Below are positions 51,641-56,760 of a stretch of DNA of 64,000 nt, one piece after another (positions within the stretch are counted from its first letter, which is position 1; each line of letters begins with the position of its first letter). The notes under the pieces are model-generated. The model had not been told where the DNA came from. It saw only the letters and a list, made by a program, of their open reading frames with translations, and searched no databases. Made by a program: the position numbers and the translations under genes. Source of the DNA: Acidobacteriota bacterium (GTDB lineage Bacteria > Acidobacteriota > Holophagae > Holophagales > Holophagaceae); NCBI GenBank assembly GCA_016192145.1, contig JACPUT010000003.1, positions 1-64,000 of the forward strand, given 5' to 3'.

Positions 51641-52834
51641 CTACTGGATCACGCCCAATTCCCGCCCCACCTTGGCGAAGGCGGCCACGGCGGTGTCGAT
51701 GTCGGCGATGGTGTGGGCGGCGCTCATCTGGGTGCGGATGCGGGCCTGGCCCTTGGGGACGACGGGGAAGAAGAAGCCGATGACGTAGACGCCCTCGTCC
51801 AGCAGGCGCTTGGCGAACTCCTGGGCCAGGGGGGCTTCGTAGAGCATCACGGGGATGATGGGGTGCTCGCCGGGCAGGAGTTTGAAGCCGAGCTTCGTCA
51901 TCTCGGTGCGGAAGTGGAGGGCGTTGGCGCGGAGCTGCTGGCGGAGGGCGTCGCCCTGGTCGAGCATGTCCAGCACCTTGAGGCTCACCGCGGTGATGAC
52001 GGGGGCGAGGGTGTTGGAAAAGAGGTAGGGGCGGGCCTTCTGGCGGAGCATGTCCACCATGGCCTTGGAGCCGCTCACGTAGCCACCGGAGGCGCCGCCC
52101 AGGGCCTTGCCGAGGGTGCCCGTCATAAGGTCCACACGGCCCATGACGTGGTGGTGCTCGTGGGTGCCGCGGCCCTGCTCGCCGATGAAGCCCACGGCGT
52201 GGCTGTCGTCCACCATGACCATGGCGTGGTACTTCTCGGCCAGATCGCACACGGCGGGCAGGTTGGCGATGTAGCCGTCCATGGAGAACACGCCGTCCGT
52301 GACCACCAGCTTGAAGCGGGCCCCGGCGGCGTCGGCCTCCTGCAGCTTGGCCTCAAGGTCCGCCATGTCGGAATTGGCGTAGCGGAAGCGCTTGGCCTTG
52401 CAGAGACGGATGCCATCGATGATGGAGGCGTGGTTCAAGGCATCGCTGATGATGGCGTCCTCCTCACCCAGCAGCGCCTCGAAGACGCCGCCGTTGGCGT
52501 CGAAGCAGGAGCCGAAAAGGATGGTGTCCTCGAAGCCGAGGAACTTCGAGAGCTTGGCCTCCAGTTCCTTGTGGATGTCCTGGGTGCCGCAGATGAAGCG
52601 CACGGAGGAGAGCCCGAAGCCGTGCTTGGGCAGGGCCTCCTGGGCGGCCTTGATCAGGTCCTCGCGGCCCGACAGGCCCAGGTAGTTATTCGCGCACATG
52701 TTGATCACGCGCTTGCCGTTCGCCTCCACCCAGGCCCCCTGGGGGCTCGTCATCACCCGTTCCCGCTTGAAGAGGCCCTCGGCCTCCAGCTGGCCGAGCT
52801 GCTTGAGAAGGTGGTCGTTGAAGGCGGCGTGCAC
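51641..52834 (-). CDS. kbl: 2-amino-3-ketobutyrate CoA ligase (glycine C-acetyltransferase)
   Basis: 397 residues, alpha-oxoamine synthase family. Cleaves the Tdh product with CoA to glycine and acetyl-CoA. [16 protein letters not shown] near residue 55, [21 protein letters not shown] lysine region [31 protein letters not shown]. Normal length. Same strand as tdh but separated by a two-component system and a small divergent gene. Confidence 0.95.
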
Positions 52835-52866
52835 GGGAACCTCGAATCAAAGGTTTAGTGTAGAGA

Positions 52867-52964
52867 GGGAACGCGAATGGCGCGAATGAAGAGCAAATGG
52901 CGCAAATGGGAGCTTTGAATTTATTTGCGCTATTCGCTCCCTGTTCGCGCCATTCGCGTTCCCC
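52867..52964. repeat. Iterated-word hairpin 10 (GCGAATGG words)
   Basis: Left arm (52867-52907): GGGAACGCGAATGGCGCGAA followed by AGCAAATGGCGCAAAT. Right arm (52923-52964): ATTTGCGCTATTCGCTCCC then GTTCGCGCCATTCGCGTTCC. Long near-perfect complement with 15-base loop. It ends 12 bases before the -35 box of the asparagine leader promoter, between divergent kbl and asnA-like genes. Confidence 0.9.
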
Positions 52965-52976
52965 TTCCCCTTTTCC

Positions 52977-53005
52977 TTGACAACTCTTGTCCCCAATCAC
53001 AATCT
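52977..53005 (+). promoter_or_regulatory. Putative promoter of the asparagine leader
   Basis: Perfect -35 TTGACA (52977-52982), 17-base spacer, weak -10 CAATCT (53000-53005). Predicted start lies about four bases before the leader ATG at 53016. Same -35-to-ATG distance (39 nt) as in the trp leader. Confidence 0.55.
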
Positions 53006-53015
53006 CGTATCCACG

Positions 53016-53105
53016 ATGCTCAAGACCTCCCTGACGCGGCAGAACAACCGCAATAACGCCAACCCCAGCACGGATCGTGCGTGGGGCGGCGAGGCTCTGG
53101 TCTAG
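53016..53105 (+). CDS. Asparagine leader peptide
   Basis: 29-codon frame with Asn at positions 10, 11, 13, 14 and 16 (QNNRNNAN), encoded by AAC and AAT codons at 53043-53063. It is followed by an antiterminator/terminator pair and then a synthetase-like gene. The clustering of one amino acid just before the antiterminator is the defining feature of ribosome-mediated attenuation. No Shine-Dalgarno sequence precedes the ATG. I know of no name for this leader. Confidence 0.85.
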   Translation: MLKTSLTRQNNRNNANPSTDRAWGGEALV

Positions 53106-53159
53106 ACAGAACCCCTTCCGCTTTCTCCCACCCCCGATCCGAAAGGCTCGGGGGTTTTT
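53071..53159 (+). terminator. Asparagine-responsive attenuator
   Basis: Antiterminator: CGGATCG (53071-53077) pairs with CGATCCG (53135-53141) and GTGGG (53081-53085) with CCCAC (53127-53131), separated by a symmetric 3x3 internal loop. Terminator: ACCCCCGATCC (53130-53140), GAAA loop, GGCTCGGGGGT (53145-53155), then TTTTTC. The terminator uses 53130-53141, so the structures exclude each other. The antiterminator 5' arm starts 8 bases after the last Asn codon. Confidence 0.9.
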
Positions 53160-53187
53160 CTTTATCCCCATTTATACGGAGGACATC

Positions 53188-54441
53188 ATGTCCAACCTCA
53201 ACGCCCCCGCCACCCTGCCCTTCGCCACCCCCTATGCCGCCGTGGGTTCGCGGCTCGGCCGCCACCAGGAGGCCCTCCGCGACCGGGGCTCCTCCCTGCG
53301 GGAGGAGGTGGAATCCCGCTACCTCGCCAAGTGGGAGGGCGAGGCGCTCGTTCACGTGCTGAAGGTGCGCACCGCCCTCGTCTCCGGCATGACGGACTAC
53401 CTCATCGAGCAGGGACTGCTGAACCTCGAGCGCGTCCAGATGAGCCTCGTGACGGATCCCCTGGCCCACGACGTGGAGCACCTGCCGGGGATTCCCTACC
53501 GCGGCGCGCCCTACGTGGCGACGCACAGCATGATCTACGCGAAGTTCCTGGCCTGCCATGCCCCGCTCAAGGGGATCTTCGTGGACAGTCCCAACTTGCG
53601 CCTGGAACTGCCCTCGGATGCCCAGCGGGGCCGTTACCTCCTCGATTTCAGCCAGCTCGACGTGGAAGTGAAGCGGGAGCGCCGCGTGGACCTGGACGCC
53701 TACCTCCACCGTCCCCATGAAGTGGAGGCAATCCTCCAGGAGGACCTGCGCCGGGCCCTCGCCTTCTTCGAGGGCATGACACGCGCGGGGCTCGCTCGCG
53801 TCCAGGACCGGGCCTGGCAGAGCCTGGAGGCCTTGGGCGTGCGGATCGACCTGCCCCGGGGGCCCTTCCCCGTTTTCCACCTGGACGAAGCCCCCGTGCC
53901 CAAGGCCCAGGCCGAGGGCTGGTTCGGGGAGCGGACCGAGGCCCAGGCCTTCTTCGTGGTGGGGCTCATGCGCGAGAACTACGACCTCATCTACCCCTAC
54001 CTGCGCCCCGACGGCACCCGCCGTTCCATCCAGGACTTCACCAGCCGGCAGATCTTCAACTACGACCTCGTGGTGAAGGGCCGCCGCTCCGATGGCACCG
54101 AACTCCCCGCGATCGAAGTGCTGAGCGGCGCCCTCCGCGAGTGGTTGCCCGAGGCCATCACCGCCCGCCTTCTGGACAATGGCGTGATCCCCGAAGCCCC
54201 TCGCCTCGATGAAGACGGCGAGATCACCAACCTCGCCGCCCTCGGCGGATACGGGCCCTTCCTCCAGGTCGCGTGTCGCCGGAATGCCGATGGCCAGCCC
54301 ACCTTCCCGGATACCTTCGGCGGCGGCATCGGCATCGAGCGCCTCCTCTGGTCCCTCCTCCGCGGTCCCCACGTGGGCCCCATCGACGACGTCACCTACT
54401 TTGGCAAGAACCCGGATAGCGCCGACCTGTTCTTGTTCTAG
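53188..54441 (+). CDS. Class II aaRS-like asparagine synthetase (AS-AR type)
   Basis: 417 residues; GGAGG six bases before the ATG. Class II aminoacyl-tRNA synthetase catalytic core related to Asp/AsnRS: helix VLKVRTALVSGMTDYLIEQG, then THSMIYAKFLACHAPLKGIF and VDSPNLRLELP (motif 2 region), LLDFSQLDVEV, and motif 3 FGGGIGIERLLWSLLRGPHV (20 residues). No OB-fold anticodon-binding domain is present at the N-terminus, as in the archaeal asparagine synthetase related to AsnRS, which makes free asparagine from aspartate. The Asn leader upstream supports this. Alternative: a truncated AsnRS-like paralog with another amino acid. Confidence 0.85.
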   Translation: MSNLNAPATLPFATPYAAVGSRLGRHQEALRDRGSSLREEVESRYLAKWEGEALVHVLKVRTALVSGMTDYLIEQGLLNLERVQMSLVTDPLAHDVEHLPGIPYRGAPYVATHSMIYAKFLACHAPLKGIFVDSPNLRLELPSDAQRGRYLLDFSQLDVEVKRERRVDLDAYLHRPHEVEAILQEDLRRALAFFEGMTRAGLARVQDRAWQSLEALGVRIDLPRGPFPVFHLDEAPVPKAQAEGWFGERTEAQAFFVVGLMRENYDLIYPYLRPDGTRRSIQDFTSRQIFNYDLVVKGRRSDGTELPAIEVLSGALREWLPEAITARLLDNGVIPEAPRLDEDGEITNLAALGGYGPFLQVACRRNADGQPTFPDTFGGGIGIERLLWSLLRGPHVGPIDDVTYFGKNPDSADLFLF

Positions 54442-54444
54442 TTG

Positions 54445-54542
54445 GGAACGCGAAGAGCGCGAAGAAAAGCGCGAAGGGCGCCAAGGAAATTGGAAGTTCT
54501 TCTTCGCGCTCTTTGCGCTTTTCTTAGCGCTCTTCGCGTTCC
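54445..54542. repeat. Iterated-word hairpin 11 (GCGAAGAGC words)
   Basis: Left arm (54445-54480): GGGAACGCGAAGAGCGCGAA plus GAAAAGCGCGAAG; right arm (54499-54542): CTTCGCGCTCTTTGCGCTTT and AGCGCTCTTCGCGTTCC. It lies between convergent genes, starts 4 bases after the asnA-like stop, and its right arm contains the last codons and stop of larB. Confidence 0.9.
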
Positions 54543-55174
54543 GATTTCTGCATCCGGTTCATCATTTTGATCGCCATGCACGCGGCTCCGAAGCCGTTAC
54601 CGATGTTGACGACGGCGATGCCGGGGCTGCAGGAGGCGAGCATGCCATGGAGGGCGACGGTGCCGCCCTCGCTGATGCCCGCGCCGATGGGGGTGGGGAC
54701 GGCGATGAGGGGGGAATCCACGAGGCCGGCGAGCACGGAGGGCAGCGCGCCTTCCATCCCGGCGCAGACGATGAGCACGGGGCACTCATGGAGCTCGGGA
54801 AGGATGGACTGAAGGCGGTGCAGGCCCGCCACGCCCACGTCGAAGAAGGCCTTCACGGGATGGCCCATGGCTTCGAGCACGGCCTTGGCCTCGGCGGCCC
54901 AGGGGATATCGCCGGTGCCCGCGGTGACCACGGCCACGGGGGCCTGTCGGCGCAGGGGCCGGGGCTCCTTCACGGCGGTGCGGGAGATGGGATCCACCGC
55001 GGCCAGGCCTTCCAGGGCGGCCATCTGGTCTTCGCTCAGGCGGGTGGCGAAGCGGAAGCCCTCGGCCTCCTGGAAGAGGGTGACCACCTGGGCCACGGAT
55101 TTGCCGGGACCAAAGATGACCTCGGGGATGCCGGTACGACCTTCACGGGAATGGTCCCAACGCACTTCAACCAT
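54524..55174 (-). CDS. larB: LarB, nickel-pincer cofactor carboxylase/hydrolase
   Basis: 216 residues from ATG 55174. LarB carboxylates and hydrolyses nicotinic acid adenine dinucleotide, first step of the nickel-pincer nucleotide cofactor of lactate racemase and relatives. PurE-like core: RTGIPEVIFGPGKS, AVVTAGTGDIPWAAEA, FFDVGVAGLHRL, VCAGMEGALPSVLAGL, VPTPIGAG, NIGNGFGAA. The final residues SEREER come from the arm of hairpin 11. Codirectional with larE 105 bases upstream. Confidence 0.92.
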   Translation of the reverse strand: MVEVRWDHSREGRTGIPEVIFGPGKSVAQVVTLFQEAEGFRFATRLSEDQMAALEGLAAVDPISRTAVKEPRPLRRQAPVAVVTAGTGDIPWAAEAKAVLEAMGHPVKAFFDVGVAGLHRLQSILPELHECPVLIVCAGMEGALPSVLAGLVDSPLIAVPTPIGAGISEGGTVALHGMLASCSPGIAVVNIGNGFGAACMAIKMMNRMQKSEREER

Positions 55175-55274
55175 GATTCTCACCTGCTGTCTCGCGTATC
55201 GGCGAAGCCGATACCGAGAAGATGACCTCGGGGATGCCGGTACGCCCTTCACGGGAATGGTCCCAACGCACTTC
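55114..55274. repeat. 55-bp direct repeat of the larB 5' end
   Basis: 55114-55168 (codons 3-20 of larB) is copied at 55220-55274 in the larE-larB gap with a single mismatch (period 106, so out of frame). Between the copies lies a small hairpin TATCGGC-GAA-GCCGATA (55199-55215). The upstream copy ends 5 bases after the larE stop codon. Confidence 0.93.
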
Positions 55275-55279
55275 CGCGC

Positions 55280-56110
55280 TCAAGCGATCACCTCGTTCAG
55301 GGCCTTGGAGAGCGAACCACTCTGGATGCCGCCCAGATCCACGGCGGCGAAGCGGAAGCCGGCCCGCCAGGCGGCCCGCTCAAGCTCGGAGCGCAGGGGC
55401 TCCTGCAGGGCCAGGGCCATGGACTCGGGCTCCAGCTCCAGGCGTACGACGGACTCGTGCCAGCGGGCCCGGGCGGGCCAGAGGCCCTTGGCGCGCATGA
55501 ACTCCTCCATGGCCTCCACCTGCTTGAGCCGTTCGGGCGTGACCTCCGTGCCCACGGGGAAGCGGCTGGCCAGGCAGGGCGATGCTTCCTTCTCGGCGTT
55601 CGGGAGGCCCCAGGCCCGAGCCAGGGCGCGGATGTCGGCCTTGCGGAAGGCGGCCTCCACCAGGGGGCTCTTCACGGCGTGTTCCTGGGCGGCCTTGAGA
55701 CCGGGGCGGTGGTCCCCGAGGTCTTCCACCTGCGTGCCATTCAACAGGACACCCGCCAGGCCGTGCTTGGCCGCCAGGGCTTCGGTCACCCCATAGAGGC
55801 TGGACTTGCAGAAGTAGCAGCGGTCGCCCTGGTTGGCGCGGTAGCCGGCCACCTCGGCCTCGCCGGCCTCCAGTTCGATGACCTCCACGCCCAGGTGCCC
55901 CGCCAGGGCGTGGGCCTCGGCCTGCTCGCTGCGGGCGAGGCTGGGCCCCACGGCCAGCACGGCGGTGGTGGGCAAGCCCGCCTTCAGGCTGGCCGCCAGC
56001 ACCAGGGTGCTGTCGATGCCTCCGGAAAAACAGACGTAGGCGTGCGCCCCGCCCACGGCGTTTCGCACGGCCTTCAGAAGGCGGGATTCCAGATCCAGGA
56101 TCTCGACCAT
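55280..56110 (-). CDS. larE: LarE, ATP-dependent sacrificial sulfur transferase
   Basis: 276 residues from ATG 56110, the family's usual length. PP-loop ATPase CFSGGIDSTLVLAASL; GDRCYFCKSSLYGV; LLNGTQVEDLGDHRPG; sacrificial Cys in EKEASPCLASRFPVG (about residue 175), so this is the single-Cys sacrificial type. It adds sulphur to the LarB product. LarC (nickel insertion) and LarA are not in the window. Confidence 0.93.
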   Translation of the reverse strand: MVEILDLESRLLKAVRNAVGGAHAYVCFSGGIDSTLVLAASLKAGLPTTAVLAVGPSLARSEQAEAHALAGHLGVEVIELEAGEAEVAGYRANQGDRCYFCKSSLYGVTEALAAKHGLAGVLLNGTQVEDLGDHRPGLKAAQEHAVKSPLVEAAFRKADIRALARAWGLPNAEKEASPCLASRFPVGTEVTPERLKQVEAMEEFMRAKGLWPARARWHESVVRLELEPESMALALQEPLRSELERAAWRAGFRFAAVDLGGIQSGSLSKALNEVIA

Positions 56111-56196
56111 CCTCCAACTATCGCATTCTCCCCCGGAGAATGCTCCCCCTCGCTTCGCTCCGGGAGTCGGAGCCTCGATTGTGGCATCCTTCCGCC

Positions 56197-56760
56197 ATGC
56201 GCCCAACCATGAAGAACCTAGCCGCCCCCTCGCTTCTGGCCCTCTCCCTGGCCTGCGGGAGCCCGAAGCTCGAGAAGGCCGAAGCCGAAGCCCAACTGCG
56301 CAAGCTCTACCCGGTCACCGTGATGCTCAGGGTGCCTGAACAGGCCGGTGCCGCCACGGGCAGCGCCGAAGGCCTTCGCCTCAAGGGCCTCGCCGACGCC
56401 CTCAGCGCCAGCGGTTGGTTCGAGGCCTCGGCCCCAGACCTGAAGGGCCGGGTCACCTTCACCGCCAAGCTCAAGCCCGGCGCCCCTGCCACCATCCAGG
56501 CCCTGCCCCAGGCCTTCCGGGTGCCCGTGGCCAAGGCGGCCTTCGACCGGGCCCAGCGGAACGATGCCCGCGAGGCCGAGACCCGGGTCACCTATCAGAT
56601 CCGCCTGGAAGCTCCCACGGCCCTCTTCCCCGCCTTCCAGCTCCGTTACCCCGACGCCAAGGTGGGGGCCACCCGGCAGCGTCATGCCCGCTTCACGAAG
56701 GATGGCCGCAGTTGGAAGCTGGCTGAGACGGACGAAAAGTTCGGCAAGTCCGAGGAATAG
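56197..56760 (+). CDS. Hypothetical lipoprotein
   Basis: 187 residues. Signal ending LLALSLAC with lipobox LSLAC. Mature part is Ala/Lys/Arg-rich with mixed strands (PVTVMLRVPEQAG, GRVTFTAKLKPG, TRVTYQIRLEA, FTKDGRSWKLAE), resembling a single small alpha/beta domain of the periplasm. Family not recognised. ATG 56209 is an alternative start. Divergent from larE. Confidence 0.7.
   Translation: MRPTMKNLAAPSLLALSLACGSPKLEKAEAEAQLRKLYPVTVMLRVPEQAGAATGSAEGLRLKGLADALSASGWFEASAPDLKGRVTFTAKLKPGAPATIQALPQAFRVPVAKAAFDRAQRNDAREAETRVTYQIRLEAPTALFPAFQLRYPDAKVGATRQRHARFTKDGRSWKLAETDEKFGKSEE

Follow-up and report, generated by a model that had tools for sequence, protein, structure and literature searches.

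A predicted asparagine-responsive attenuator upstream of asnB and of a bacterial relative of archaeal asparagine synthetase A

The attenuators of the classical amino acid operons are of the trp, his, leu, ilv, thr and phe type. The element described here resembles them in that a leader ORF carries codons for the product of the pathway and precedes a gene for that amino acid, and in that a protector, an antiterminator and an intrinsic terminator compete for one strand; it differs from them in its Asn codons and in the asparagine synthetase genes, established or probable, that it precedes. No ribosome-mediated attenuator appears to have been described for asparagine. A 2010 survey predicted attenuators in Acidobacteria, almost all of which had no associated function (PMC2965389), and Asn leaders are named neither there nor in a survey of Actinobacteria (PMC1262725). 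The original prediction for this locus was unaware of any described Asn leader, and in keeping with this an Asn attenuator was found neither in Rfam 15 nor in the open-access literature searched. Although its mechanism is of a classical type, the element is new to the sources searched in three respects: its amino acid, its genes and the taxa in which it occurs, namely Holophagaceae, a Thermoanaerobaculum MAG and Gemmatimonadetes MAGs.

The closest described enzyme is archaeal asparagine synthetase A (AS-A or AS-AR; P. abyssi 3p8t/3reu, P. furiosus 1nnh), which arose by duplication of an AspRS ancestor (PMC3532385, PMC9437257). Like this enzyme, the protein encoded downstream of the leader has a class II core without an anticodon domain. 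However, it is bacterial and longer (417 vs. 294 aa), and an attenuator accompanies one subclade of its family. We refer to its gene as the AS gene, and to the whole stretch of DNA analysed (64,000 nucleotides) as the window. The features of the locus are collected in Table 1.

Table 1. Features of the leader–gene unit (positions in the window) and loci of the sister leader
Feature	Position	Strand	Remarks
Tentative candidate promoter, TTGACA-N17-CAATCT	52977-53005	+	Read from sequence
Leader peptide ORF, MLKTSLTRQNNRNNANPSTDRAWGGEALV*	53016-53105	+	29-codon frame; orthologous leaders L009, L016, L012; homologous ones before asnB
Putative regulatory Asn codons 10, 11, 13, 14, 16	53043-53063	+	Run kept in relatives
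Protector/pause hairpin, segments 1:2, CCCCAGCACG-GAT-CGTGCGTGGGG	53063-53086	+	-15.5 kcal/mol
Segment 2, 5' arm of antiterminator (CGGATCG...GTGGG)	53071-53085	+	Pairing with segment 3
Segment 3, 3' arm of antiterminator (CCCAC...CGATCCG), common to terminator	53127-53141	+	2:3 duplex -19.7 kcal/mol
Intrinsic terminator, segments 3:4, GAAA loop and T run	53130-53163	+	-18.6 kcal/mol (53130-53155)
Class II synthetase-like protein, 417 aa, relative of archaeal-type asparagine synthetase A	53188-54441	+	ATG start 53188
Sister leaders before DAHP synthase, neighbouring genus			L132, L135, L136, L139, L141, L145, L147, L150, L152, L157, L161, L168, L170, L181

As expected of an attenuator, the leader ORF is short and contains a cluster of codons for the amino acid of the pathway, and the frame with Asn at five of the seven positions 10–16 is present as the original prediction had claimed. 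Among the 114,788 stop-free 7-codon stretches in the six frames of the window, the leader is the sole site with at least four Asn per seven codons, and one stretch has five. The leader ATG has no evident Shine–Dalgarno sequence upstream. The second hexamer of the candidate promoter is a poor match to the consensus, and a sigma-70 consensus scan reported no promoter, this one included; a similar spacing can be seen by eye in L009 and L010. Transcription from this tentative promoter would begin almost at the leader ATG, a few bases from it at most, giving a near-leaderless leader.

Three stems, namely the protector, the antiterminator and the intrinsic terminator, overlap the leader. In the antiterminator, CGGATCG (53071–53077) pairs with CGATCCG (53135–53141), and GTGGG (53081–53085) pairs with CCCAC (53127–53131). 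Because segment 3 is common to both, the antiterminator and the terminator are mutually exclusive. The original prediction had proposed this exclusion, which the pairing and the folding energies bear out; the protector was absent from it and completes the classical set. The terminator region has a z-score of −3.4 relative to shuffles. An RNA that stops before the 3' arm of the terminator takes the antiterminator fold (−34.5 kcal/mol), whereas the full-length RNA takes the protector-plus-terminator fold, and this folding order fits that expected of an attenuator.

Both the overlap of these mutually exclusive structures with the leader and the structures themselves are kept between species. Over 45 aligned leaders, 95.3% of the cells are paired in the protector, 95.7% in the antiterminator and 96.9% in the terminator, compared with maxima of 75%, 45% and 61%, respectively, in slid controls. 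Among the antiterminator pairs, the one that varies most is G-U in 18 leaders, A-U in 14 and G-C in 13, and is never mispaired; in the protector, two pairs have changed on both sides. Such two-sided changes are few since the leaders are highly conserved and related rather than independent, so that pairing of 95–97% comes with only modest covariation. The conservation of pairing supports the stems without proving them alone.

The arrangement suggests the following mechanism. With ample Asn-tRNA, the ribosome would pass the Asn codons and cover or release segment 2; segment 3 would then be available to pair with segment 4 as the terminator, ending transcription before the gene. With scarce Asn-tRNA, the ribosome would stall at codons 10–16, masking segment 1 and freeing segment 2, which would pair with segment 3 to form the antiterminator, and the synthetase gene would be transcribed. 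Stalling and the control of termination are steps that we infer. On the comparative evidence, the element is very probably an Asn-sensing ribosome-mediated attenuator; that it is a classical one, sensing the charging of Asn-tRNA(Asn) and controlling an ammonia-type asparagine synthetase, is held with a good deal of confidence, if not quite as firmly.

Among 93 genomes of the class, the AS gene is found in four, i.e., its own genome (G000), a congener (G061), G069 and G078; a fifth genome, G076, has a remnant only, consisting of the last 20 codons. The leader peptides are MVLAPLMRRNNRNNASPSANRAWGGEALT in G061, MSLSHLMRQNNRNNNGLRANGVVVGEGMS in G078 and MATLSLVRQSNRNNNTNPRADRAWDGEGMS* in G076; the contig of G069 ends at the AS gene, so that the upstream leader region lies outside the data. 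The orthologous loci retain both the Asn codons and the competing stems. At L012 (1366–1560; also L187), the Asn leader runs straight into the final 20 codons of the AS gene, and the terminator is missing its 3' arm, reflecting either an internal deletion or an assembly error.

Among the 84,980 species of the genome_contigs collection, 36 loci with relatives of the AS gene were identified, and the family is rare, with one member among 396 sampled Acidobacteriota and two among 395 genomes of the Gemmatimonadetes group. Asn leaders precede the AS gene in five further genomes (L009/L015, L016, L018, L019 and L020). A Thermoanaerobaculum MAG (L018) and Gemmatimonadetes MAGs (L019, MTPAVCIRNSNSNRNNPCARRGREGIGV; L020, MSAYPLARNNSGNLPCAPRAWDGIAV) have an Asn-rich leader followed by a strong terminator before the gene, and the 2:3 stem of L018, CCTGCGGGTCG/CGATCCGCAGG, can be read from the sequence as 11 pairs, one of which is G-U. 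The family members in Deltaproteobacteria and Spirochaetes are without a leader. Several of the leaderless Deltaproteobacteria copies lie on the same strand after glnA (three loci) or purF (five loci) (L023, L025, L028, L026, L027, L031, L034 and L038). A leader-like frame between glnA and the AS gene at L025, where no terminator was detected, was taken as chance.

The same switch is found before a second synthetase gene. A first search pattern, GCGTGGGRCGGYGAGG with one mismatch allowed, matched in 65 of the 93 genomes, similar to its control, and was too permissive; it nevertheless pointed to leaders of asnB. A tighter segment-2 pattern was far commoner in the 93 genomes than its reversed control. 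Directly upstream of canonical asnB, a homologous Asn leader with a terminator is present at about 43 Holophagaceae loci (40 in an automatic tally, plus L158, L159 and L182, which the start-codon rule had missed), in the majority of the genomes of the neighbouring genus g3 and in several others; these tallied leaders are related rather than independent. The AsnB encoded behind the leader is the canonical equivalog (NF006949), scoring 804 bits against the asparagine synthase B cut-off of 499. AsnB consists of a glutamine amidotransferase and a synthase domain and is unrelated to the 417-aa protein, whereas the upstream attenuator architecture and, in part, the leader sequence are shared. Thus, the Asn leader reported before the AsnRS-like gene is real but not peculiar to that gene, and the gene behind it belongs to the metabolism of the same amino acid in the case of asnB and, by our assignment, of the AS-A-like gene. 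Because the same attenuator type stands before asnB in Holophagaceae, one Asn-sensing switch would serve two non-homologous synthetases. For the same reason, the leader provides evidence on the function of the divergent synthetase-like protein that is independent of protein similarity, and on this basis the members of a rare bacterial protein family would be expected to make asparagine. A different Asn leader with its own terminator precedes asnB in five genomes of g9 (L205–L209); this type (MTFASVNFANNNPPPGWSW, also MTFASVNFANINPPPGWSW and similar) hardly resembles the main type in sequence. The asnB genes of g4, G043 and G076 are without a leader.

The RNA core also occurs with other codons. 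A sister leader, MTPRFHRYYWSPRADRAWHGEGPA*, carries Tyr/Trp codons and precedes a DAHP synthase gene (TIGR00034); such leaders often have His codons too, and they have the same segment-2 core and a terminator. The mean number of Asn codons per leader is 3.8 before asnB and 0.3 before the DAHP synthase gene, and that of aromatic codons is 1.9 and 5.4, respectively. Across the sequences compared, the RNA core is constant while the codons track the gene, and this swap between Asn and Tyr/Trp within one conserved core amounts to a natural experiment on the change of attenuator specificity. The asnB leaders use AAT 99 times and AAC 53 times, whereas ten asnB genes use AAT 7 times and AAC 92 times; it seems that the less used codon, or the avoidance of structure, is selected in the leader, although the p value is no more than indicative because the leaders are not independent. 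At L189 and L192, a leader-like frame, MSLVHPQIKRNTNLPRVDRAWAG*, and a terminator precede a 605-aa ORF, which is without a Pfam or NCBIfam match.

The 417-aa protein has a sub-threshold Pfam match to tRNA-synt_2. It matches NCBIfam NF005054 (asparagine synthetase A) with E 8e-28 and 97.4 bits vs. a cut-off of 309, and NF005052 with 56.8 bits vs. a cut-off of 368; since both cut-offs are missed, we call it AS-A-like, i.e., a member of a related bacterial clade outside the equivalog. NF005054 matches all 35 family members. However, it also matches AsnRS, and the AsnRS of the same genome (L003) scores 148 bits, above the 417-aa protein; we rejected this match as functional proof because AsnRS proteins outscore the family. 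A tree was therefore built with archaeal AS-A, AsnRS, AspRS and LysRS. The bacterial family and archaeal AS-A, the latter represented only by relatives of one Lokiarchaeota MAG, form one group (100/100) outside all AsnRS. Within this group, the family is one separate clade on a long stem (2.43), and its leader-bearing members form one subclade (97/100). A copy from a MAG labelled 'Lokiarchaeota' (L050) was rejected as an archaeal member, as the tree places it with Spirochaete-type copies; it may be a binning error. The motifs THSMI and SG..REW are common to the 417-aa protein and Pyrococcus AS-A, whereas Thermococcus AspRS has SGGQREH. Both motifs are kept in the bacterial family, many residues of which are invariant across the 35 members; the last position of REW varies in the archaeal AS-A of the tree.

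The best PDB matches by sequence are 1nnh/3p8t. In the predicted structure (pLDDT 83), residues 35–417 span only the AspRS/AsnRS catalytic domain, and the model contains no OB-fold anticodon domain of AsnRS, which upholds, at the level of a model, the original prediction of a class II core lacking that domain. Structural alignment gives the highest identity with archaeal AS-A (24–28%). However, the structural Z-scores give no basis for choosing between AspRS, AsnRS and AS-A, and the placement rests on the tree and the motifs for this reason. The protein has no Pfam match to AsnA (E. coli type, PF03590) and matches TIGR00669 only at E 0.1. Instead of being AsnRS-derived, as in the original description, the protein is better described as belonging to a bacterial clade on the branch of archaeal asparagine synthetase A.

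The own genome encodes a complete AsnRS (L003), which exceeds its cut-offs, and neither AsnA (by Pfam) nor canonical AsnB was found in it. An AsnB homologue (L004) is present, which is nearest to an exopolysaccharide amidotransferase and passes the broad asn_synth_AEB cut-off, so this genome may have a source of asparagine besides the AS gene. Canonical AsnB is absent from three of the four genomes with the AS gene (G000, G061 and G069), although its absence is uncertain in G061 and G069, both of which are about 76% complete. G078 has both enzymes, each behind an Asn leader (asnB at L188, the AS gene at L010/L016). In these genomes, one asparagine synthetase seems to have taken the place of another, in whichever direction, while the switch in front was retained.

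On the combined evidence, the 417-aa protein is most probably an asparagine synthetase, for which we infer catalytic activity and ammonia as the nitrogen donor. The alternative that survives best is that the attenuator is genuine and Asn-sensing, but that the enzyme, rather than making free asparagine, activates Asp or Asn for some other ligation, a role known from other synthetase paralogues. The length of the stem between the family and the known archaeal enzymes, the missed NF005054 cut-off and the AsnB homologue L004 would be compatible with such a role; however, a bona fide asnB lies behind the same leader type, canonical AsnB is missing from most genomes that have the AS gene, other family members neighbour glnA and purF, and the signatures THSMI and REW are those of AS-A, which together make this alternative improbable.

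That the Asn codons are incidental, i.e., that an ordinary terminator follows a chance ORF or that another sensor such as a T-box operates, is very improbable. Although layouts of a terminator and a short ORF do arise by chance and the promoter match is weak, the Asn codons recur before asnB and, in three bacterial groups, before the AS gene, and they become Tyr/Trp codons before DAHP synthase; a match to an Rfam leader or T-box is absent, the T-box model giving none at E up to 1 within 52800–53300. Least credible of all is that the gene is a truncated AsnRS, functional or decaying, behind an aaRS-type attenuator: asnS could equally be under an Asn-responsive attenuator and the fold class is the same, but a complete AsnRS is encoded elsewhere in the genome, the anticodon domain is absent, the tree separates AsnRS from the family, and the many invariant residues speak against decay.

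Returning to the preferred reading of an Asn-sensing attenuator before an asparagine synthetase gene, a broader account can be given even chances. According to this account, an attenuator with a swappable cassette (Asn or Tyr/Trp) was kept or recruited before two non-homologous synthetases, accompanied the exchange of AsnB for the archaeal-type enzyme in Holophagaceae, travelled between phyla together with this enzyme, is the first of Asn specificity, and marks a bacterial clade of archaeal-type asparagine synthetases.

Several features of the neighbourhood were also observed. On either side of the leader–gene unit, at 52867–52963 and 54445–54542, lies an imperfect inverted repeat whose arms are 41 nt long (GGGAACGCGAATGGCGCGAA type). 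Rfam matches at 52840–52982 are to plant and animal microRNA models, lie on a 41-nt inverted repeat and were taken as chance. The genes larB and larE (54524–56206 of the window, minus strand) adjoin the AS gene, as they do by sequence in the congener (L009), and a glycine C-acetyltransferase is kept on the other side.
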